Assembly: GCA_020086605.1 (NCBI GenBank)
Contig: JACBWW010000017.1
Location: 15,533,257-15,597,256 of the forward strand
Direction of reading: 5' to 3'
DNA length: 64,000 nucleotides
From: Lanius collurio
Lineage: Eukaryota > Chordata > Aves > Passeriformes > Laniidae
Below are positions 9,213 through 53,339 of the stretch, one piece after another; the stretch's first letter is position 1, and the number at the start of each line of letters is the position of its first letter. The notes under the pieces were generated by a model. It saw only the letters and a program-made list of their open reading frames with translations. It was not told where the DNA came from and did not search any database. Made by a program: the position numbers and the translations under genes.

Positions 9213-9715
9213 AGAGAATCACAGAATATGCTGAGTTGGAAGGGACCCACAAGGAGCACTGAGTCCAACTCAGCCCTGCACGGGACCATCCCCAAGAATC
9301 GCACCATGTGCCTGAACTCTGGAGTCTTCATCCGGCTCGGTGCTGTGACCACTTCCCTGGGGAGCTGTTCCAGTGCTCAGCCACCCTCTGGGTGTAGAAC
9401 ATTTTTCTAATATCCAACCTAAACCTCCCCTGACACAACCTCAGGCCATTCCCTCAGGTCCTCTCACAGGTCACCACAGAGAAGAGACCAGCATTTGCCT
9501 CTCCTCTTCCTCTCGTGAGGAAGTTGCAGATTGCCATGAGGTGTCCCCCTCAGTCTCCTCCAGGCTGAACAGACCAAGTGACCTCAGTCACTCCTCACAC
9601 AGTTTCCCTTCAAGGTCCTTCACCATTCTCTTGGCTCTGCTTTGGACGCTCTCTAATAGCTTAATATCTTTCTTATATTGCAGTAACAATGCCAGACCAA
9701 AATCTCTGACAAATT
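9213..9715 (-). mobile_element. CR1 LINE, 3' end, 5'-truncated
   Basis: The plus strand begins with the reverse complement of the avian CR1 3' terminus (AGAATCACAGAAT, then CTGAGTTGGAAGGGACCCAC and GAGTCCAACTC). It continues through the CR1 3' region, including CCAACCTAAACCTCCCCTGA. At its far end (about 9540-9690) the minus strand reads through the end of the reverse transcriptase ORF: LLLQYKKDI and then RMVKDLEGKL are visible before stops appear. The element is therefore inserted on the minus strand and truncated at its 5' end near 9715, as is usual for CR1. Stops and indels show it is dead. The plus-strand open frame at 9373-9753 is only an antisense reading. Confidence 0.93.
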
Positions 9716-16888: not shown

Positions 16889-18165
16889 TCCAATGGTTAT
16901 TCCTGCTTCATTTGAAGATAGAGCTGTTAAAATTTAGGAAAGTTCCTTGTGGTAGAAAACATTGGCAAATTTTGTGAAAAACTCATTTTGCAAAGAAGTG
17001 TTACAGTGCAAAATAATGTTTTAAATAAAATAATTTTGTTATCTGGTAGCATGTAAGTACTCATTGTGTCATATTTGTCATGCCTTCTGGCATAACAAAT
17101 TTAGCATTTGCTGCAAGACACATTGGCTGCTGTCACAGGAGGTAGCAAAATTGATATAAAAGAGGGACAGCATATGGCAAAAATATCACTTTGGGAAAGG
17201 ACATAATGCTACAATTAATAATAAAAGAAGAAAATAATCTTTTTCTAAAGAGAAATCTAATACATTTAAAGTGCATCCCTGGAGCAGTTTACTGTGGTTC
17301 CAAGCATAGGTGAATTCTCCTAGGTGCAGTAATCTCTCAGTGTAATTTATTTTGTAAGTACTATGCCAAGCAGGAACACATAGTAGACAAAACATAGAAT
17401 ATATAATAAGCTATAGCCTTCCCCTCCCACTGAAATCTTTTTTCTTGATGAACTTTTGTACCAAAGACTTTATTTCTTGAAAAAGAAGCAGTATATATGC
17501 TTAGCTTGGAATGTCAGACTTTCTTGCTGCTGCATCACAGTGAAATATTTTTTATTTCTGGATTGGACTGGGTCTAATGGCATGTGTCAACCTCTCTGAA
17601 TTCTGGCTTGCCTATAAGTAGGGCTGAAATTGGGAAGTCTCTGAAAAATTACTTCTTTTTGACCAGGGAAGGGGAAAAAATGCCAATGTACATCAATTCA
17701 ATAAAAAAGTGTCAAAAAGTTCTCTCTCTAGAAGACTAGGTGGCTGTTGCAGGTCCATGTAGAAAGTTATTCTAGAAGCTATAGCAAATGAAAATACAAA
17801 GTGAAGTCTTCTGAATAGGTGTGTATTTGCTATTTCTCCAGAAGATAAGGAGAGGTTATTTCAGCTCAGGACAATAAGGAAGTTAACCTGCTAGATCCTT
17901 GCAACTGTTTTCAAGGACTTTTACTTGATAGAGAACAAAGAAAGTGCGATAAAACAGGAGTGGGTGTTTCACATCTTAAAGCTCTGAAAAGTGTGTTTGA
18001 CAGATTGCAAACATGGGAAAAATACATTTCTGAAGACCTTTGGTGGGAGGCAAGAGAATTCTCTCAGGCAGTAAATAGAATTTGTTAAAGTGAGTGGCTC
18101 CAGTACCTAATCTGTGCTGATTTCCATGGACAAACTGCAGTGAATCCTTCAGAAACCTTCACACA

Positions 18166-18359
18166 CAGCATCACACAGGATATGCTGAGTTGGAAGGAAC
18201 TCACATGGATCACTGAGTCCAGCTCCTGGCACTGCACAGCACCATCCCCAGGAGTCACACCATATGTCTGAGAGCACTGTCCAAAAATCTCTTGAACTCA
18301 GTCAGGCTTGGTGCTGTGACAGGGTGCTGCTCCCTAGGGAGCCTGCCCCAGTGCCTGAC
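18166..18359 (-). mobile_element. CR1 LINE 3' end, segment interrupted by LTR insertion
   Basis: The plus strand shows the CR1 3' terminus in reverse complement (CTGAGTTGGAAGG, then GAGTCCAGCTCCTGG and CACCATCCCCAGGAG), as in the copy at 9213. The element runs to GTGCCTGAC at 18359, is broken by a 501-bp insertion, and resumes at 18861. Joining CAGTGCCTGAC to CACCCAAAGG restores the order seen in the uninterrupted copy near 9371-9390, so the CR1 was present before the LTR. Confidence 0.92.
18354..18359. repeat. Target site duplication CCTGAC (left)
   Basis: CCTGAC immediately precedes the insertion and is repeated immediately after it at 18861-18866. Six base pairs fits integrase of betaretrovirus-like (ERVK) elements. 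One copy fits the CR1 empty site. Confidence 0.88.
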
Positions 18360-18413
18360 AGCATGAGACTCTTAATCTCAGGGTCGTGGGTTCGAGCTGC
18401 ACATTGGGCGCCA
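18360..18413 (+). other. Partial tRNA-Lys(CTT) sequence (positions 23-76) joined to an LTR
   Basis: This 54-base segment reads, on the plus strand, as tRNA-Lys(CTT) from A23 to A76, including the CTT anticodon, the TTCGA of the T loop and the post-transcriptional 3' CCA. Positions 23-58 (36 bases) match the usual vertebrate sequence exactly; positions 59-76 carry three differences. The CCA, which is not gene-encoded, and the two-base spacer before the LTR show that it derives from a mature tRNA used as a reverse transcription primer. It is not a tRNA gene: the acceptor 5' strand, the A box and most of the D arm are absent. A B-box-like GGTTCGAG remains at 18389-18396. On the minus strand, the first 18 bases after the LTR spacer form a PBS (TGGCGCCCAATGTGCAGC) of the tRNA-Lys(1,2) type. 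Confidence 0.9.
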
Positions 18414-18415
18414 TT

Positions 18416-18860
18416 TCTGGTGGTTGACTAGTTTGTCCATTGCTCAGTTTCTGTGGCAAGCTTGCCTCTTTATGTCTTGGATTATCTTAAACCATTTACA
18501 AACAGCCTAAATATTCCTTGACTGTGCAGCCCCACCTTAAGACAGTGTTAGTTGACAGCTACTCACCAGAAGCAGAAGTTGAGAAGAGAAATACAGCTCA
18601 AACCTCCTTATGGTGTTAAGTCATTTATTCCCTCTGTCCCAGGGGGACAGAGCACCAACCTGGGCAAGAATCAGCTGGGGTAAGAGGGCGAGGCTTTGTG
18701 TCCCCTTGGTTTTGTCCCAGAGAGGGGGAAAGGGGGCACCATGGCAGAGCTGGGATAAACAACCAACCAGATCAGAGCCCGGGCTGCTGGAACATCAGAC
18801 AAACCCAGCTATCTCAGAGTCACATGGCAGGGACCCAGCTGGGGGGGGTCCACCGCAACA
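18416..18860 (-). mobile_element. ERVK-like LTR, copy 1, with attached tRNA-Lys sequence
   Basis: This 445-bp LTR reads on the minus strand from TGTTGCGGTGG to CCACCAGA. It is clearly the same family as the copies at 29949 and 41627 over its full length. A polyadenylation signal lies mid-element. Two bases (AA on the minus strand, 18414-18415) separate the 3' end from the PBS, which equals the dinucleotide retroviral integrase normally removes. No gag, pol or env and no second LTR are present. The insertion as a whole (18360-18860) is flanked by CCTGAC duplications inside a CR1. ERVK assignment rests on the 6-bp duplication and the Lys(1,2) primer site. Confidence 0.92.
18624..18629 (-). promoter_or_regulatory. 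LTR polyadenylation signal AATAAA
   Basis: The minus strand reads GGGAATAAATGACTTAACA, shared in form with the other two LTR copies, so this is the family's poly(A) signal and marks the R region nearby. Confidence 0.75.
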
Positions 18861-19008
18861 CCTGACCACCCAAAGGTGAAAAACCTTTTTTGTAATATCC
18901 AGCCTAAACCTCCCCTGACACACCTTCAGGCCATTCTCTTGTGTTCTGTCAATTGTCATCAGAGAGAAGAGATCAGTGTCTGCCCCTCCTTTTCCCTGCT
19001 TGACTTCT
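18861..19008 (-). mobile_element. CR1 LINE 3' region, distal side of the LTR insertion
   Basis: The segment begins with the right target duplication CCTGAC, then CACCCAAAGGTGAAAAACC and CCAGCCTAAACCTCCCCTGA, matching the CR1 copy at about 9382-9480 in order. At about 19000-19008 the similarity to the CR1 3' region ends and the endonuclease-coding region begins. The reverse transcriptase coding region that should lie between them is missing. Confidence 0.88.
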
Positions 19009-19816
19009 GACATTTGGAATTGCCTGCTCCTGTTCCCTTATGAGGTCATGTCTAAAAAGTGACCAACACTGATGGATGCCAGCATCTCTAAAAAGTTTTT
19101 TCCAGGGCACCTTGCTTACTAGCTCCCTGAGAAGCCTGAAGTCTGCCCTCCTCATATGCAGAGTTCAGGTTTTGGCACTTTTCCTCCTCTTAACAAGATT
19201 TTAAACTCAATCTCTTTGTGGTCACTGTGGCCAAGACTGCCATTGATCTCCAGTTCACTCATGAGATTGACACTTCTGACAAGCAGAAGATCAAGGAGGG
19301 CGTTTTTTCTGAGCTGGCTCCCTTAGGACCTGTTCCGTAAAGGTGCCCTCCAGGTTTTTAGGAATCTTCTGGTCCGGGTTGTACCAGCTGTGTGATGTTC
19401 CCAGTTAATTTCTGGCAAGCCAAAGTCTCCCGTAAGGACAAGGTCAGTTCACTCGGAAGACCCCCTTAGCTCCTCAAAGATTGATTCATCATTGTCCCAG
19501 CCAGGAGGTCTACAGTCCCACAATGACATCTGCATTATTTGTTTGTCCCTTGATTCTTATCCAGAAGTTCTCAACTGTGCCACTGCCAGCTGTGAGCTCC
19601 ACACATTCTACCCCTTCTATTACATACAGTGCCACCCCTCTCCTGCTGTGCCTGACCCTCCTGAAGAGCCTGTAACCATCCAAGGCACTCCAGGCACAGG
19701 AATCATCCCCCCCGGTTTCACTTATGCCTTATGCCAGCAATGTCAAATCTCTGGGACTGGGCCAAAGCCTGGAGTTCTCCTTGTTTGTCCCTCATGCTGG
19801 GTACATTAGTGTGGAC
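19009..19816 (-). pseudogene. CR1 ORF2 endonuclease remnant, disrupted
   Basis: On the minus strand, from high to low coordinates, the pieces of a CR1 APE-type endonuclease are recognisable. They are an N-terminal stretch HTNVPSMRDKQGELQ near 19816-19765, then DGYRLFRR and VALYV near 19680-19625, and WIRIKGQTNNADVIVGL near 19570-19520. GDFGLPEINW follows at 19430-19401 and GHSDHKEIEF at 19232-19203. The SDH catalytic triad residues are kept (19218-19226), but the usual GDFN motif reads GDFG. After the endonuclease comes RADFRLLRELVSKVPW (about 19149-19102), the connector normally found ahead of the reverse transcriptase. Several stops and frameshifts break the frame. The reverse transcriptase itself is deleted, with the connector joined to the CR1 3' region. 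Plus-strand frames here are antisense. Confidence 0.88.
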
Positions 19817-20540
19817 ACTTTTCAGATTGGGGAATCCTTTCCTCAAGTTTTGACACAATATCCCATCACTAATCACTGGTCAGCCTGGCTTTGGAAGGGG
19901 CCTTACTAAACTGGAGACTTTTCCCGTAATGTCCTTTATCCAAGCCCCTAGAGACAGCAGACTTCCTTGTGAGTTGGGTCTGCTCTGTATATCAGGCCCT
20001 TCATGACCCTAGAAAGGAGTCTCTGATTAAAACTATCCCTCTTTTCCTTTTAACAGAGGAAGGCACAGTGTGCAATACAGGTGATGCTGTTTCAGGGGGC
20101 CCCACCATCCCAGAAGGATCTTCACCCACCTCATCAGTTGTCTGGCCTTCTAGTCCCAGAACCTCACATCTGTTGTAGAAGGTTCCAGTCCTACTTGTCA
20201 GATTCTGAGAAGGAGGAGGAATCTTCTCAGGTCTGCTTCCAGTGTTTGTCTTTAACAGACCCTTGGCTCACAGTCATTTCACTGATTACCCTGCAGGGTT
20301 CTGAGTCCACCTGCTTCTCCACTACAGTGGAGGTTTGAGACTCCCAAGAGTCTTGAGACCACAGTATCTCTGATAATAATGGGTCTATTTCTACATTCAC
20401 TTGAATGTTGTGTAGGGAGGTGGCATCAGCTACAGAACAAAATGCACCTACAAAGTCATACAGGCTGAGGAGCGCATGATAGGTCATATGTAGATCCTCA
20501 GCTTCACAGCACTCACCCCTCTTGAGATTGTTCATAGGGC
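19817..20540 (-). mobile_element. Probable further 5' part of the same CR1
   Basis: Sequence continues without a visible break upstream of the endonuclease remnant and keeps a similar, relatively GC-rich composition until about 20540. There the DNA returns to the AT-rich local background. This position would hold the end of ORF1 and the inter-ORF region of a CR1. I cannot recognise ORF1 motifs, so both the assignment and the left limit are tentative. Confidence 0.4.

Positions 20541-28124: not shown

Positions 28125-28173
<49 letters not shown>
28088..28173. repeat. TG/TA/CA compound microsatellite with dyad symmetry
   Basis: A short (TG)n tract (28089-28098) passes through alternating TATATGTATGTATATACATATATGTA into 23 uninterrupted AC dinucleotides (28128-28173). 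The left half is close to the reverse complement of the right, so the alternating purine-pyrimidine tract can also fold on itself. The open frame across it simply translates the repeat. Length is probably polymorphic. Confidence 0.95.
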
Positions 28174-29942: not shown

Positions 29943-29948
29943 ATGAGA

Positions 29949-30391
29949 TGCTGTGGTGGAACCCCCTGGGCCCCCCTGCCGGGTCCCTGCCATGTGACTG
30001 AGTCAGGTCTGTCTCATGTTCCAGCTGCTCGGGCTCTGATCTGGTTGGGTGTTTGTCCCATCTCCGCCCCTGGATCCCCTTTCCACCCCTCTGTGACAAA
30101 ACCAGATTGACGAGAAGCTCCACTCTCTTACCTCACCAACTATTGCCCAGGTTGGTGCTCTGTCCCCCCCAGGACAGAAGGAATAAATGACTTAACATCA
30201 TAAGAGGTTTGACCTATATTTCCCTTCTCAACTTCTGCTTCTGGTGAGTAGCTGTCACTGACACTGCCTTAAGTGGGGCTGCACAGTCGAGGAATATTTA
30301 GGCTGTTTGTGAATGGTTTAAGATATTCCAAGACATAAAGAGGCAAGCTCACCACAAAATTAAGCGGTGGACAAGCTAATGCACCACCAGA
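29949..30391 (+). mobile_element. ERVK-like solo LTR, copy 2
   Basis: This 443-bp LTR runs from TGCTGTGGTGGAACC to CACCACCAGA and is flanked by a perfect 6-bp duplication, ATGAGA (29943-29948 and 30392-30397). It fixes the family's boundaries: the 3' end is CCAGA rather than the usual CA, because no other placement gives matching flanks. A poly(A) signal sits at 30182-30187. No PBS or internal region follows, so it is a solo LTR left by recombination between two LTRs, or an equivalent loss. It has the opposite orientation to copies 1 and 3. Confidence 0.95.
30182..30187 (+). promoter_or_regulatory. LTR polyadenylation signal AATAAA
   Basis: GGAATAAATGACTTAACA lies about 235 bp into the LTR, in the position shared by all three copies. 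It could terminate plus-strand transcripts crossing the locus. Confidence 0.75.
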
Positions 30392-33300
30392 ATGAGAGAG
30401 CCAAAGCACCAGAGAGACTGGCTTCCTAGGGAAGGTGAAGAGGCACATGTCTGTACCATAGCTTGGACAAGTGGTTAATGGCTACTGGGATTGACAGAAG
30501 CCTTCTGATATTTAATGGGTATTAACACAGAAGTGACAGAACATTAAGGGATAAGGAAAGTAAAGAAAAGTATAAGTCTTTTGGGATGGGAAAATATCGT
30601 GTAAGAGATAGTATGTTAGGTCTATTGAAGTAATCACTATCAGTGTACCATTTTCCTAGGTTTTATTTTTATTGTTTACATGGCTGCTAGAAATTCGCTT
30701 TAATAACAATAAGAAGAAATGCAGTCAAAGTAACAAGAAAAAAACCTCTCAATCTTGAGAGAAACACCTTCCTGACTGGCAATTTTGATGAAATGTCTGA
30801 AAAGGAGCTAATCCTTGTCTCTTGGGATTATAGTAGGAAAATGGAAAGATGTAAGCAAATGCACAAGAGCAGACAAAGAACGGAACTAGATTTGATCAGG
30901 TTTATTTTAAATTGCAACAGTAATCAAAGCCTTTAACTTTTAAAAAACACCTCACACAGGTCATTAGACAACAGGATATGTGCATGTATAATGCAAAAGA
31001 CACTAGAAAAGTCAATCAAAAGAAATAAGGATAAAGTTCTACTGTGTTGAGGTACCCCTTTATCTCTTTGTTTTTCTTCTGAGAACTGTGCCCCAGAGGA
31101 AGCAATGGTGTGAAATATTGTTCAAGTTCATTCTGGAATATAAGCTCCTTCACCAGGACTGGCATGCACTTGCCTTGCTTTACTTGCCAGAACAGGATGA
31201 CACTCGTTTATCACCCACATAAACATTTGCAGCATGACTGCAAACAGCCAGCCATAAGAAGTAGCATCTCAGCAGCTCATTTCTAGAAAGTGTGGGGCAG
31301 TGGCTGATGCTACCAGGCTTGGGATGGGCACGCACAGGGTGATGCCAGGGTGCTTGGACCACGCATACTGATACTCTCCTTTTTGCCCAGGGAACAAATT
31401 TTGCTTCCCAACCTGTCCTCCTGACTGCAGAGATATGTTTGAATCCTGCCAGTTGTTCAGAATAGTGGGTTTGAAGTACTTTTCTGCTCTGGCTGTAGTG
31501 ATGACAGGAAGTACAGATACTTGACAGATACTCCTGGACAGCAGTGGCTGTAATTTGTACACATTATTGCCACATTTTTTGATCCTTCCTTCCTTTCCCC
31601 ACTCCTGCACCTGCATTTCTCTGCCCCAGTCTTTTCCTAGATAAACAATCAATCCTTAACTACTTTCTCTCTGTTTGTTCTGGTTTTGGGATATTGATAC
31701 CCATAATTATTATTTCTGTTACCATTCCTTACGTAATCTTAATCTTATGTGTTCTTACTGCTCTGGTCGTGCAGACACTGTTGACCTTGCAAGACTTTAC
31801 TACTCAGAGGTCCCCAGTGCCCCTCTCCAGTTATCTGTGAAGTTTGGCACATGCCTTCTCCTTAACCACCTGTGAAATTCAGACCTGTTCTCCAGCACTT
31901 TCTGTAGCTTTTGATAGCATCTCACACTGTTATCTATCACATCCAAGGACTTCTCAGGTCGGGTTCCTCCAGTGGGTTTTCATTCCCTGTTATGCTTAGC
32001 CTCACTGGAGTTCAGTCCAATAGCCTTGGCACCTGCCTACAGCCCACTGTGCTTTTTCTGCCTTTCTCTTATTTTGCTTCCCTTGGCATATTTTGCTCTT
32101 TCTGACGTTTGTTTTTTTTCCCACTTTTCAGCTTTCTTCCACTTAAAAAAATATTTCAATAAATAGCAATAACCAAAACTTTAAAAGAGCAACATATCGT
32201 GGTCTTAATCTACATCTGGCTGTAATTGCTGAAAGAAATAATGAGTCTGGAGTGCCCTGCATGAGCTCTGATGTAATGTGTGATTTCAAATTACAGTATG
32301 ATAAGGGAAAATGGGTAATAGGCTAAATTTCCTCAGCTTAGTGAAGAAATCTATGACCTCCTGCACTAATGCACTGTTATTCTGACTCATCAAGTAGAAC
32401 AGTCCAGTTCCAAAAGACAAAACACAGAACCAGATCCCTGATGTATACAGGGACAGAAAGATTGAAGGTTTGATATATTTGAACGAATGATATTGCTGGT
32501 ATGAATATACCTTAGATCAACATGTTTAATATGTTACTGGAGTCCTTATCAGAGCTGATTTCTGGAGGACTCTGTATAGATCAGCCTAGTCTCAGATTCT
32601 CCCAAAGCCCTATAGCTCCTTAGGTCTCCCCAAATAAAAATTTTTAACTCTTAAAACCTGAGCTCAGTGCCTCTGAAAAATCTGGGTCTGTCCCCAGTCA
32701 CAAATCACTGTTTCACAGAGTATCACATGCATTAAAAGTAGTCCAGCTTTTGTCAGAAGAATCTCTAAGACTTTTTATGTTCATAAGAAAATAATAGACA
32801 GAGATTTAAGTGCTTACACATACCATTCCTTTTCTCTTCCCTAGAGAGAAGGAATGTCACAGTCAGTGAGAGTTAATGCTTGCAAAATTGAACTATTTAA
32901 TATAATTTCTGTTAGTGTTGCAAAATGTAATTCAGATTTTAAAGGTTTCTTTTTTAAAATAACACAGACCCTTTGCTTTCTTCTATTAAAGCTCAAAACC
33001 TAATGTTTGTGTGTATGTTTATATATGTGTGCCCTCTTTTAATCAACAACAAAAACCTGCCCTCAGGGCAACATAGGCATTTATGAAGCAGACGAGGCAT
33101 GGATTGCGCCCTTAATACTGGATATTGTTTGCCAGTTGGGTGAGCTTTAACACACACTGTGAGCTGAGGACAAATTTGGCACTTTTTTTGGCCTCAGCTG
33201 CAAAAGTGTTTCTACAGTACAGCTGACTTCCAATTTACACAGTGCTGATGTGTTTTCCTTACGATAAAATGCCAGTGCACTAGAAATGACTGGTGTTTCA

Positions 33301-38634: not shown

Positions 38635-41626
38635 CAATCATTCCATAAATCTACTCACACAAATTCTTTTTGTTCAGAAGTTTCAGCTGTTGATTGCTAT
38701 GAAAACAAACACTTCATAGGTAGGCAATGAATCACTTAAATTTTCAAATTGAGAGTGACTCTCCAAATAGGTTCTGATGAGCAATCTGAACAGTTCAGTA
38801 ATCATCACTCTTGCTCAGTTGTTCCTCACCTTGCAAACAAGCATTTGAAAGAGTGAGGCCACTTATGGAGTAAGGGTCACTTTTGCAGCAATGAGTTTAT
38901 CATCATTTACTTTCACCATGAGTGTGCTTTATGTCTTCCAAGTTATGCTCTTTTCAATCCCACAGAACAGACAAAAAGATGTAGCCTTTGTCAATATTTG
39001 CTAAAAACTCTCAGTACTTCCTGACTTCAGAAGAAGATGCATGTTCTTTTATGTGGACATTTGGTTTTCACCAAGAAGTAGGAAATGTTTTCTAAAACGT
39101 AGGTCATGGAGCAAAAAGCAAGTTTTTCCCCTTCATTCACTTTAATGTTATTTTCTTCTTCTCCACATCCAGTACTGTCCCAGAATAACAACTTTAGCAA
39201 ACTTTCAAGCAGCGTGGCAGTTTCTGAATCCTCATTCATAATATCACTACTCACTCTAAGAGAAAGAATTACTTGTGACTTTCATGCAAAATAGCTGGTT
39301 GTGTCTTTTACGTCAACAGAAACATGACAGCAATAACAAATAGGATGTAATGCAGATAAAATCAACTAAATTACTTTAAAAATCACGTTGGCTACACAAT
39401 ATCTGATTGCATTTCCCAGAAAGCTGCACACATGAAGAGGAATTTCAGCTACTATCTGTTGTTCAGTAGGTGCCAAGCTCTCAGATCCAAGCTCAGCATT
39501 ATGTCACTGATAAATGATATGAAGGAATCCATGTGTATGTCATACCCATCTAAATAGGTGTTATGCCAAAGTTAGTAAGTTATTCATAAGTGTACAAACT
39601 TTTTGAAAATATCCTTCTTTTCTCAATGAAATTGTCATTTATGCTTATTTCCCTTGCAAACACCCAATTCCTTCAAGCAGACTAGACTACCTGCTCACCA
39701 TAAGCATAATGGCATCTAGACTGGTGGAGTGTATTTACTCAATCTTTTTTCTTATTAAAGTATATATATTTCACATTCTGATAAAGGTGACATCTGAACT
39801 GAAACAGATACACAAGTTTCAGAAAACTATAATCCCATTAATTATAACAAAAAAATATGGTTATCAGAAGTTACTTTGATATTTAACCTATGATTATCGC
39901 AAATCACAAGAGAGAAATTGAAAACCTTTGCCTGCTCTTTAGTGAATAAAATTTTCTTTCTCTGAAAGTGAAACTTTATACACCAGTGCCTACTTGATCA
40001 TGAATAAAAGCAACTGAAATCTGAAATATGATTTCAAACTTAGAATATTATATAGTAGCTTTTATGTTTATTTCAGAACACAGAACAATGTAACTGAAAG
40101 AATGCAGCTTTAAAATAATGCAATTTTCCTGTTCAATTGATAATTTTCAATTTATTTGTACATAAACCTCCGTGTCTAACTGAAAGCTCCAACATGTTTG
40201 TGTCATCTTCTCAAATGATAAGCTACATAATGGAATTATACATTTGTCCTTGATGATAGAAATAATCTTCAATTTGGGCATGTAACTATGTGCTCAACTA
40301 ATTCAGAACATGTGTCCCAGCAGGGCTGCAGGCTAGCTTAAACCCATTTATTTTAAACAAACAACAATGTTCCTGCTAATGTTCTTTATTGCTTTGGTTG
40401 AAGAATGTCTCATCTCTCCTCAGCAAACAGAAGTTACAAAGTTTGAAAAAGCCCTTCCTCTTCCACCATCTAAAGAGCTCTACCTGCAAGGAGAGGGCAG
40501 AGTAGTGCCTTAGGGCAGAGCACTGCCTTAGCAACAGATCTTAAGCCATGGTTGACTTCAAATCTAAAATTTAGCTTTGTAGTGAAATAAAGAAAACCAA
40601 ATGGGAGTAGGTGGTGAGGAAAGAGCCTCACAGGCTATGCTGATTGAGAATCTCAAGGGTTTTTACCTTTGCTCAAACTCAGATGTGATCCTGGCATAAG
40701 CCAGCAGAATCACTTAGTTAAAAAGTGTAATACTGACTTCTCCCGCTGAAAATCTGATCTGTAGTGTTATTTCCTGTCTTGTCTCTCTCAAAGTTTGTTG
40801 AACTCATTGACACTCAGAGAACTAGAGAAAAATAATTTAATAATAGAAACCTTTCTGCTTCCACCTTTAATTTAACAGAAAAAAGCTAGAAGTTTTCTTT
40901 TTCATGGTGTTATGGTCTGAGAAGTGTCCTGCTGGGAATCTGCCCTGCAGCTTGATAGTACAAACTTTGGCTCTTTAAAACCAGCTGGTGCATCTGGCCT
41001 TGCTACTGACCTATCTGTTTGAAGTGTGTGCATATTAGTTGAGGCTAAACTTTTGTTTGCAGCAAATTAACACAGCTCAGAGAGAAATCTCATGCTGTCT
41101 TACTGATCCAAGACAGCATTCTAATGGGAAAGCTACTTTTTGCTGGAAGCTAATGTCTGCCTTTCAGCTTATTCCTGTCATATTTCATATTGTTATTCTT
41201 GCAAATTAACTGATTTTTCTTTTTGTACATGATCTTTTACACAGACCTATGAACTCAATTGCATCTTTATATTTATAACAGATTTTATTGAAAAATGTTT
41301 TGGTTTGTGACACTGGTTCATATTAAATGTATAACTTGAAGTGGTCCTTGTGTTCATGAATGACTATTGTCCATATAGTTGATGTCAGCCTTAAATTTAA
41401 TGGACCCTAACATTGGATCAGGAAATAACAACAGTGCAAGGGACAAAAGATGCAAAATATTCTTGTGCAGCTCTCCAGCAATGAGGTGAAATGAATGGTT
41501 AGAGTCAAAAGTGCCTCATGGACTATGGGTCTCCTAAGAACTTTGGTTCACTGGCATCTTTCTATACTCTCTCCCTGTGTTGAAGAAAACCTTGCTTTGC
41601 TGATGGAAAGCAACAGTTTACATATT

Positions 41627-42057
41627 TCTGGTGGTTGATTAGCTTGTATACTGCTTAATTTTGTGGTGAGCTTGCCTCTTTATGTCCATTCACAAACAGC
41701 CTAAATATTCCTTGACTGTGCAGCCTTACTTAAGGCAGTGTCAGTGACAGCTACTCACCAGAAGCAGAAGTTGAGAAGGGAAATAAAGCTCAAACCTCCT
41801 TTATGATGTTAAGTCATTTATTCCCTCTGTCCTGGGGGGCACAGAGCATCGACCTGGGTGAGAGTTGGTGAGGTAAGAGGGCGGACCTTCTCGTCCATCT
41901 GGTTTTATCACAGACAGGGGGAAAGGGGATACCAGGGGCGGAGATGGGACAAACAACCAACCAGCTCAGAGCCCGGGCTGCTGGAACTTCAGACAGACCC
42001 GACTCAGTCACATGGCAGGGACCCGGCCGGGGGGGCCCAGGGGGGTTCACCGCAACA
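41627..42057 (-). mobile_element. ERVK-like solo LTR, copy 3
   Basis: This 431-bp LTR reads on the minus strand from TGTTGCGGTGAACC to CAACCACCAGA and is collinear with copies 1 and 2. Flanking hexamers CATATT (41621-41626) and CATCTT (42058-42063) match at five of six positions, consistent with a decayed target duplication. Unlike copy 1, no PBS or tRNA sequence follows its 3' end. GC-rich U3 sequence with runs of G (about 42028-42045) is retained. The open frames on both strands here (41814-42101, 41858-42115) are not genes. Confidence 0.93.
41817..41822 (-). promoter_or_regulatory. LTR polyadenylation signal AATAAA
   Basis: The minus strand reads GGAATAAATGACTT in the same place as in the other two LTR copies. 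Confidence 0.75.
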
Positions 42058-45000
42058 CATCTTGGTGGGGTGTATCGACATGGGTTTGCTGTCTCATGCA
42101 TCCCCTAGTTCCTAGAAAGCTGAACTTTCCAGAGCTTGACAAGGACTGGAAAATCACTGCTTCTCTCCCAGAGTGTCTGTGTAGTTTCTCTGCCCAACAA
42201 AGTGACAGATCTGCTTTTGATGTGCCCTCATAATGCATCAGCTGCCATGGGCTTGGTCATAAACAATTCTGTCCTGCTCCGCCAGGGAGAGGCTGCAAAC
42301 CCAGCTACCAGGGCACAGCCTGTGCCAAGGCTGAGAGCCAGTGGACAGCGAATGCCTGTTGGGATGTCTTTGCCTTGTACATAGAAAGAAGCCAGCAAGC
42401 ATCGCTTAATTGCTCTAATCCTCATTTACAACACCTCATTCACCTGTATTCTAAAGCAGACCATATAAATTGGGAACAGCCACATCTTCTGGAGAAGCAG
42501 TTATGAGTAAAAAAGAATTGTGCAGTAGGTATTAATAATTTTAATTGAGAAATACCGTGTAGTAATGATAAATGTTGTGTATAAACAAATTGTTCAGTTG
42601 AACTAATGGTTTAAGTTATTTTTATAGCATTAACTTTGGTAACTACTGAAATTACAAAAGTAATCTGGCAAGTCACTAGAAGGCTCCTTTTATTTACAGT
42701 GATCTAAAACAAAAACATCTGCTGCTACTGTTCTTGTTATATGTTCCCTTCTGTGCTGCATGGGTTTTTTTGCTTTTTACTGAAACACAGCCTGTGCAGA
42801 ACACCATAAAACAACAACTTAATTGCTGTGTTGATGTTTTTTTGGATCCCACTGACTTTCTTGGGCAGCTTATGAGCCCAATCAGAATGTAGAAATTTGG
42901 CACACCACACTTGTGTGAAATGCTTGGGGACAGGAGAAGGACAGGAAGAAAATGTGGAGCTGATGAAACAGAGAAGAATCAATTCACCAGCTTGAAGGCA
43001 AAATAAGCATACTAACTGACAAGTGCTTTCTAAATAGTTTGAACCAATTCAAATGACAGCCAAATAAACCATGGTATTGATAAATGCTGACGAATGAATA
43101 ATTTTTTTTGTAGGAAACCTCTACAAAGTGGGGTGAGTGTACTGAGAGGGTGAAACCTCCATTCCTCCACCTTTGTCTTGGATTTTTAGTTGATTTTGTT
43201 CTACAGCAAATAGACAGTGCCTCAGGTGAGAGAAACAAAAAACAGGGGAAATTAATTTCTATTTTAATAGCAAGAAATTCAAGACCGAGCTTCCAGGGAG
43301 ATTACTGCTTTTCACAGGTGGTTGAAGCTGCTTGGCTTGCAGCCCTCATGCCTTATACAGTCCAGGGAGCTGCTTTTGCCTAAAACATAAAACCACACTG
43401 CCAGTCTTTTGGGGAATGATGGATAATGAAAAATAGGATATCAATGTGTTAAATCTGTTTGCTAAATTATTTTAGCAATATTTTTAAAAATATTTTTTAC
43501 AAATATTTACAAACATTTTTTAAACTCTGCACTATTTACCAGTATTCTTTAGATGATATGTACAGATACTGATATGGGCAATGTGGTTTGTTCTCCCTAT
43601 GTGTTTGTTTTTGTAAAAACTGAAAGGATTAAAAAGGTGTTTGGAATTACATTATTTGATTAATGTAGGGTTACTACATTTTCAGATCCACTGCTTTAAT
43701 ATAATAAAAGCAAAAGATGTACTTTAAGTAAACTGCTAGTATTACACTTCCAGTTATCACTGGTTTTACTTGAGAGCATAAAATTTATCAGATATGTAAA
43801 CATCCTGATAAGAAAATACTCTAAGAGAGCTAAAATTCTGAAGAATTTAATTTAGAGAAAACAATTCAAGTCTTGTGTTGACACTTGCTTTTCTAAATGG
43901 ATGTTTTTCTTCTTAGAATAACAAGGGAAAATATATTTAAGTTAACAAAATTCTAGTCATATAAGCACAATGAAGGAAAGGAAAATACATGCTAATTGGG
44001 AATGATAAGCTTAAGGATTTATTTTTTGTGAAAGGTTTTGAAAATCTACAGGAATAAATTCTTACATTATTAGCAATATATATGAAATTTGGCAGATTTT
44101 GCAATTAATATAATTCTAATGCTACACAATCAAGACAGAAATGTCAGTGTTACTCCATCCAAAGGAACAGATATGTTTCCATATCCTTAATGAATTGTTT
44201 CTCAATACTGCAATAATTTGGGCATATATGTTCCTGAAGGAAATTCACCAAAGGATATGACATATCCAAACATATATACTGCTGGCAGTGTTTGTCAATT
44301 TTCTTTCTCCATTAAATATATCAGTTTTTGTTGAGAAAAATAGATCTCCTAAGAACAATAAGACTCTCCATGCTCCGTAAATGTTATGGTGAGATTTTTT
44401 ATCTTTTTTTTTCAGCTCAGCCTTTGAATCACAACTTGGTACCTGGCTTAGAAAATTTACAGGTTGAGATTAAAAAATGTAAAAACTCTAAAATGTCCTC
44501 CTAGGATGGAGTTGGATTAGTGTTAGTACCTCTCCAAAGGATATTTTCTGTCTCTTAGGTAGCATAGGCAGTTGCTTTTTATATCTCAAGAAGGCACAGG
44601 AGTTTGTGGTTTGGGTGATGGGATCAATGTGGATACTGAAACTGACTTCAAAGGACATGATGAATTTTTGACAGCTCCAGCATTAAATATCAGTTTAAGA
44701 TAGTCAAATCTTCTAATTCTTGAGCAGGCAGGTAGGTATTCACTCCCACTGAGATTTTTCTTCTGTTTTAAAAGAATCTGATGTAGTACTTCAGGGTGTA
44801 TAGGTCCCAACCTTTCTTCACTAACAAGGAAAGAAAATTAATTTAAGGCACATTCATGTTTTTGCAATATCATGAAATGCTAAAGTTCAGTCTTTAGTCA
44901 TTTGAAAAATCAAGCAAAAGGATTAAACTTTTAGTATGACCTTTTATGTGATTACATCTGCAGCACCAGAAGGAACAGTACTTTATCTCACTGAAGCATA

Positions 45001-53253: not shown

Positions 53254-53265
53254 GTTTTTTTTGGT

Positions 53266-53308
<43 letters not shown>

Positions 53309-53339
53309 CCTTTGGTTTGGTTTGGTTTGGTTTGGTTGG
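53254..53339. repeat. T42 homopolymer and (TTTGG)n microsatellite
   Basis: After a T8 run and GGTG, 42 consecutive T residues (53267-53308) are followed by CC and five TTTGG units ending at 53339. On the minus strand this reads as CCAAA units and then a long A-run. I see no retroposed gene or LINE body adjoining it on either side. The true length is uncertain, since such tracts are often miscalled. Confidence 0.9.

Follow-up and report, generated by a model that had tools for sequence, protein, structure and literature searches.

How could an LTR come to carry a copy of a primer tRNA beside its end, within one and the same target-site duplication? This question is raised by a locus in the window, by which we mean the whole stretch of 64,000 nucleotides analysed here, taken by us to come from a bird. 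A 501-bp insert was found at 18354–18866 between exact CCTGAC repeats. On the LTR-sense (minus) strand, the insert runs through a 445-bp LTR (TGTTGCGG...CCACCAGA), the dinucleotide AA, and 54 bases complementary to positions 76–23 of tRNA-Lys(CTT), i.e., the 18-base primer-binding site TGGCGCCCAATGTGCAGC and 36 more bases, up to the second CCTGAC. A retroviral LTR is thus linked, via two bases, to 54 bases copied from the 3′ portion of a lysine tRNA. The first-pass annotation had described such an insert of 501 bp between CCTGAC duplications, with an LTR, AA, an 18-base primer-binding site and 36 further tRNA bases ending at position 23, and both its coordinates and its content were confirmed. 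The features of the insert are as follows.

18354–18359, no strand: target-site duplication CCTGAC, tRNA side, an exact 6-bp match to 18861–18866
18360–18413, minus strand: copy of tRNA-Lys(CTT), positions 23–76 including CCA, 54 nt, 51/54 identical
18396–18413, minus strand: 18-base Lys primer-binding site, with three differences from the tRNA (61, 62 and 66)
18414–18415, minus strand: AA spacer between the LTR end and the primer-binding site (TT on the plus strand)
18416–18860, minus strand: LTR A, 445 bp, TGTTGCGG to CCACCAGA in its own sense, aligned over its full length with two sibling LTRs
18861–18866, no strand: target-site duplication CCTGAC, U3 side, an exact match to 18354–18359

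The plus strand of 18360–18413 reads as the tRNA, and the LTR-sense strand is its complement. The LTR contains AATAAA. The CCTGAC duplication measures exactly 6 bp and extends to neither 7 nor 8, and an exact 6-mer match at this spacing of 507 was seen at 39 of the 63,474 positions compared in the window (0.06%). No internal retroviral sequence lies beside LTR A or beside its siblings, LTRs B and C.

The identity of the tail was examined by alignment with a reference sequence of tRNA-Lys(CTT). The two are identical at 51 of 54 positions, and at all 36 beyond the primer-binding site; the differences fall at tRNA positions 61, 62 and 66, with none in 23–58. The tail also includes CCA, which is added to tRNA post-transcriptionally. 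A chance likeness was rejected, because local alignment to the tRNA scored 48 at the tail and no more than 15 anywhere else in the window. ARAGORN named the reference Lys(CTT), and the insert agrees over 39 of its first 43 bases with an independent tRNA-Lys(CTT) gene, which ARAGORN called in an unrelated contig (L001, 3101–3175), so that the identity of the tail does not rest on the reference sequence alone. Over the window itself ARAGORN listed no tRNA, the copy in the insert being truncated, and an Rfam search of 17000–20000 at E ≤ 1 gave a single match, which was not a tRNA and was below the gathering score. For the 18-base primer-binding-site pattern with Ns and up to three mismatches, 0.49 matches are expected by chance; the weight therefore falls on the 36 further bases and on the structure. 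The three differences from the tRNA are confined to the primer-binding site, the 36 bases beyond being free of them, an arrangement with a probability of 0.033 if differences are randomly placed and a point against the origin favored below. Because two of the three are adjacent and one is CpG-like, this concentration may be due to chance. A 17-base tail pattern matched two viral contig stretches, one in L001, where the tRNA-Lys(CTT) gene called by ARAGORN overlies the match, and one in L002, where 22 of 23 bases match the tail and ARAGORN calls no tRNA. Between 522 and 11176 of L001, ARAGORN called 44 tRNA genes in the 11,236 bases examined of this 523,836-base IMG/VR contig.

Whether the LTR and the tRNA copy entered together can be read from the surrounding sequence, a dispersed repeat that is presumably CR1. 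Two copies of it are relevant here.

18174–18995, plus strand: dispersed repeat that received the insert, identified by flank alignment, its matched stretch interrupted by 18354–18860
9220–9510, plus strand: second copy of the host repeat, identified by flank alignment and used as the empty-site control

When joined, the flanks of the insert align through the join to 9220–9510, with 233 of 316 columns identical, and this second copy has neither LTR nor tRNA. The tail lies outside the LTR yet inside the duplication, which argues that one integration inserted both. As far as the window shows, the LTR and the tRNA copy thus entered in a single event. Two separate insertions, of a tRNA retropseudogene and then of an LTR, were rejected, because one exact duplication encloses both parts and the host repeat is uninterrupted in its other copy. 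A tRNA-derived SINE or a tRNA retropseudogene was also rejected, as the tRNA copy has no duplication of its own that leaves the LTR out.

A BLAST search of the insert against the window revealed two further long matches, both solo LTRs.

29943–30397, plus strand: sibling solo LTR B, 443 bp (29949–30391), with exact ATGAGA duplications and no tRNA tail
41621–42063, minus strand: sibling solo LTR C, 431 bp (41627–42057), with AAGATG/AATATG duplications matching at 5/6 and no tRNA tail

LTRs B and C end in CCACCAGA, at the same base as LTR A before its AA. Because each does so directly beside its own duplication, the tail of A must start exactly at the LTR end plus AA, the site where the primer tRNA joins retroviral minus-strand DNA. 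The possibility that the tRNA is part of the LTR or a feature of the family was rejected, both siblings in the window being without it. Identities over aligned bases are 371/432 for A and B, 365/419 for A and C, and 390/427 for B and C, and among 416 sites A has 38 private differences, B 21 and C 14. The tRNA part of A diverges at 3 of 54 sites (5.6%) and its LTR at 38 of 416 private sites (9.1%), values compatible with one age for the two parts as judged from these sequences. LTR C (41627–42057) lacks a short stretch near the U5 end that A and B have. As two of two siblings found here are solo, LTR–LTR recombination is common in this family.

The features of a class II/ERVK-like element are shared in part. 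A 6-bp target-site duplication was found in all three copies (exact in A and B, 5/6 in C) and a tRNA-Lys(CTT) primer-binding site in A only (15/18), but the termini are not TG...CA, as A, B and C all run TG...GA by their duplications. In the accessible text of one source, the CA terminus is called invariant and 6 bp is given as the duplication size of MMTV (PMC9410886). The LTRs of this family end in GA, from which we infer that its integrase may tolerate odd ends. Exact LTR patterns gave no matches in the viral and prokaryote contig collections, which carry little information on birds. Elsewhere in the window, a pure AC repeat of 23 units occupies 28128–28173, and a T tract (period 1, 92% matches) at 53255–53308 is followed by TTTGG repeats at 53311–53337.

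In our judgment, the insert is, on balance, likely to descend from a full-length viral DNA that entered with a tRNA tail on its right end and was afterwards reduced to one LTR by recombination between its two. In ordinary reverse transcription, plus-strand synthesis takes in 18 bases of the tRNA and halts at m1A58. In the proposed course of events, tRNA-Lys(CTT) would have primed reverse transcriptase and stayed on the minus strand, and plus-strand synthesis would have copied the retained primer past A58 and the anticodon to about position 21–23. Concerted joining by integrase, of a U3 end that was normal and another end that came from the tRNA, would then have produced the 6-bp duplication usual in the family. 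Recombination between the LTRs would have taken out the internal region together with one LTR, so that LTR, AA and tRNA copy were left. As in a retained primer of the Colicelli–Goff type, the tRNA complement stands at an unprocessed U5 end, in the order LTR end, AA, TGG, and the copy continues beyond the primer-binding site without a mismatch. A read-through of A58 and of the anticodon loop, which the first-pass annotation had proposed, is supported by this uninterrupted identity as far as position 23. Its proposal that integrase joined both ends also agrees with our results, the U3 end being normal, the other end tRNA-derived and the 6-bp duplication exact. Such a duplication points to concerted joining, although the joined strand at the tRNA end is ...CATGCT, four bases past a CA and not a CA end.

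Details of the copying step can be considered further. A stop just before D20, with 21 as the last copied base, and integrase trimming of the usual two bases would place the junction at 23, as observed, but this is speculative. D16 and D20 are listed for human tRNA-Lys3 in the available excerpt of one study (PMC11878792), and another, in the part accessible, reports reverse-transcription stops at dihydrouridine only after alkaline treatment (PMC9176250), which leaves the D20 detail unsupported. The tail carries the expected base at positions 37, 46, 54, 55 and 58. Reverse transcriptases are described as often misincorporating at m1A and pseudouridine (PMC7472051, in excerpt), so the unchanged bases hint at an under-modified primer tRNA rather than error-prone bypass, which we regard as a fair guess.

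The main competitor of the recombined provirus is a direct integration of single-LTR DNA, i.e., a duplex plus-strand strong-stop product extended through the tRNA, which would give a solo LTR without recombination. Both this route and a two-LTR provirus followed by recombination predict the identical sequence at the locus, and which of them is likelier is judged from the known order of reverse transcription. The anatomy U3-R-U5-AA-tRNA is that of an extended plus-strand strong-stop product, in favor of direct integration. A clean U3 end, however, arises when the minus strand copies the transferred strong-stop DNA to its end; because it normally needs a completed second strand transfer, a two-LTR precursor is the likelier. 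In a single-LTR intermediate, the minus strand continues past U3, and a clean TG end would need an extra cut at the border of U3 and the polypurine tract. The over-extended plus strands described in accessible parts of PMC13191261 are not used in the second strand transfer, which bears on both routes: such products would be dead ends available for integration, and a full-length DNA would presuppose either another plus strand or a tRNA peeled off first and copied later. The open-access literature on integration of intermediates led to HIV solo LTRs, which are explained by recombination, and solo LTRs are stated to form by homologous recombination (PMC7077288, as excerpted). The full-length route asks for no more than a slip already described and an event that is frequent; direct integration of single-LTR DNA seems to us a tentative possibility. 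The stronger form of that proposal, that integrase took the extended strong-stop DNA as a complete substrate and integrated it concertedly, so that solo LTRs may be born from aborted reverse transcription, is slightly more doubtful. The first-pass annotation had settled on integrated single-LTR DNA: its one-piece integration stands, whereas the claim that there was only ever one LTR is not established, a recombined provirus giving the same sequence.

Four further readings were weighed against the recombined, tRNA-tailed provirus. If integrase had joined the U3 end only and host repair had joined the tRNA-bearing end, the 6-bp repeat would be accidental. In its favor, integrase had no proper end to work on at the tRNA side. 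Aberrant U5 ends in RSV were described by Oh, Chang and Hughes (2006), reportedly with large duplications or deletions rather than 5–6 bp. Uncoordinated joining is also known (PMC2857682, in the part accessible). Against these points stand the rarity of exact 6-mers at spacing 507 in the window and the duplication size of the siblings, which is also 6 bp in B (exact) and C (5/6), and we consider a host-repaired end improbable. An amplified non-autonomous LTR-AA-tRNA family, with this locus as one copy, is very improbable, as the other two LTR copies in the window are without the tail and a lone LTR that has neither a partner LTR nor a polypurine tract is not copyable by the normal scheme. A Pol III-driven family with the insert as founder was rejected, the A box being absent and the B-box region altered to GGTTCGAGCTG; the suggestion of the first-pass annotation that the insert might have founded an LTR-tRNA family is, with one LTR and these promoter regions, unlikely from its anatomy. 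We give still less credence to a 5′ LTR with an enlarged primer-binding site left over from a provirus whose interior was deleted from the leader to the exact 3′ LTR end. An ordinary provirus also starts with LTR, AA and a Lys primer-binding site, but a normal leader matches the tRNA over 18 bases, not 54, and the far break of the deletion would need to coincide precisely with the duplication, making two coincidences in all. Least credible is an assembly or cloning artefact at the LTR-tRNA join, since an exact duplication, an empty site and a join at the primer-attachment base are unexpected of a random misjoin.

The recombined-provirus reading can be compared with systems in which tRNA-derived DNA has been seen beside LTRs, all cited here from the accessible portions of the sources. 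The circular MLV DNA of Colicelli and Goff (1986) carries a tRNA between its LTRs, explained by a primer that was retained and copied after complete plus-strand elongation (PMC12220202). What the circle has in common with our insert is a primer tRNA that stayed attached to the U5 end and was copied by plus-strand synthesis. The MLV circle, however, was unintegrated and held a spurious tRNA-Gly without 4 bases, whereas here the tRNA matches the primer-binding site and the DNA was integrated, between 6-bp duplications, and is fixed in the assembly. In an HIV-1 clone from the same source, 67 nt of reverse-transcribed tRNA-Gly lie beside the 3′ LTR (PMC12220202), so that tRNA-derived DNA with CCA abuts an integrated LTR there too. 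That tRNA was not the primer, it replaced host DNA without direct repeats, and its authors regarded it as a separate, self-primed event, in contrast to the single duplication that encloses LTR and tRNA here. Sequence of tRNA or of the primer-binding site has also been reported in 2-LTR junctions (PMC5618025).

In Mre11-deficient cells, insertions were found at 11 of 147 junctions, some of them of 2, 4, 11 or 15 bases of the primer-binding site, and the 5′ junction was normal in the three proviruses for which both ends were known (PMC2797772). These share with our insert a U5 end extended into the primer-binding site and a normal U3 end. In the abnormal proviruses, though, the repeat was absent or 2–3 bp, whereas in our insert the extension is 18 + 36 bases long and the duplication is exactly 6 bp, a difference that counts against the recombined-provirus reading. 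Plus strands that run on into the tRNA past the 18-base primer-binding site are described for TRMT6-mutant cells, where extension past A58 occurs; minor stops lie at psi55, m5U54 and ms2t6A37, and unmodified tRNA is fully copied (PMC13191261). Those products are intermediates in vitro or in infected cells, unlike the integrated copy here, whose end at 23 corresponds to none of the listed stops (A58, psi55, m5U54, ms2t6A37 and full length). The Helenus TRIMs resemble the insert as non-autonomous LTR elements that contain a tRNA-like sequence, but theirs lies inside both LTRs, is unrelated to the primer-binding site and comes with 4- or 5-bp duplications (PMC10886601), while our insert has one LTR, and the tRNA, which lies outside it, is the primer. 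A Helenus-like TRIM with a Pol III promoter was rejected on the single LTR, the tRNA outside it and the missing A box.

Primer read-through, tRNA-bearing circles, partial primer-binding sites at junctions and a tRNA beside an integrated HIV LTR are thus already in print, as far as the accessible texts go, and the open-licence literature searched listed no endogenous insert of an LTR and its primer tRNA whose duplication is intact. From test tubes and infected cells, copying of the primer tRNA past A58 is known as a dead end. Such a copy in the germline, flanked by exact 6-bp repeats, would demonstrate that an integrase accepted a tRNA-derived end in concerted joining. The junction of LTR, AA and tRNA is also a search key: genomes can be screened for it and the junctions counted, and the tRNA positions at which they stop would trace reverse transcriptase stops on real primer tRNAs, making the modification state of the tRNA, and the choice between single- and two-LTR precursors, testable from sequence. 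If single-LTR integration proved true, solo LTRs would arise without recombination and integrase could use a tRNA-derived end.
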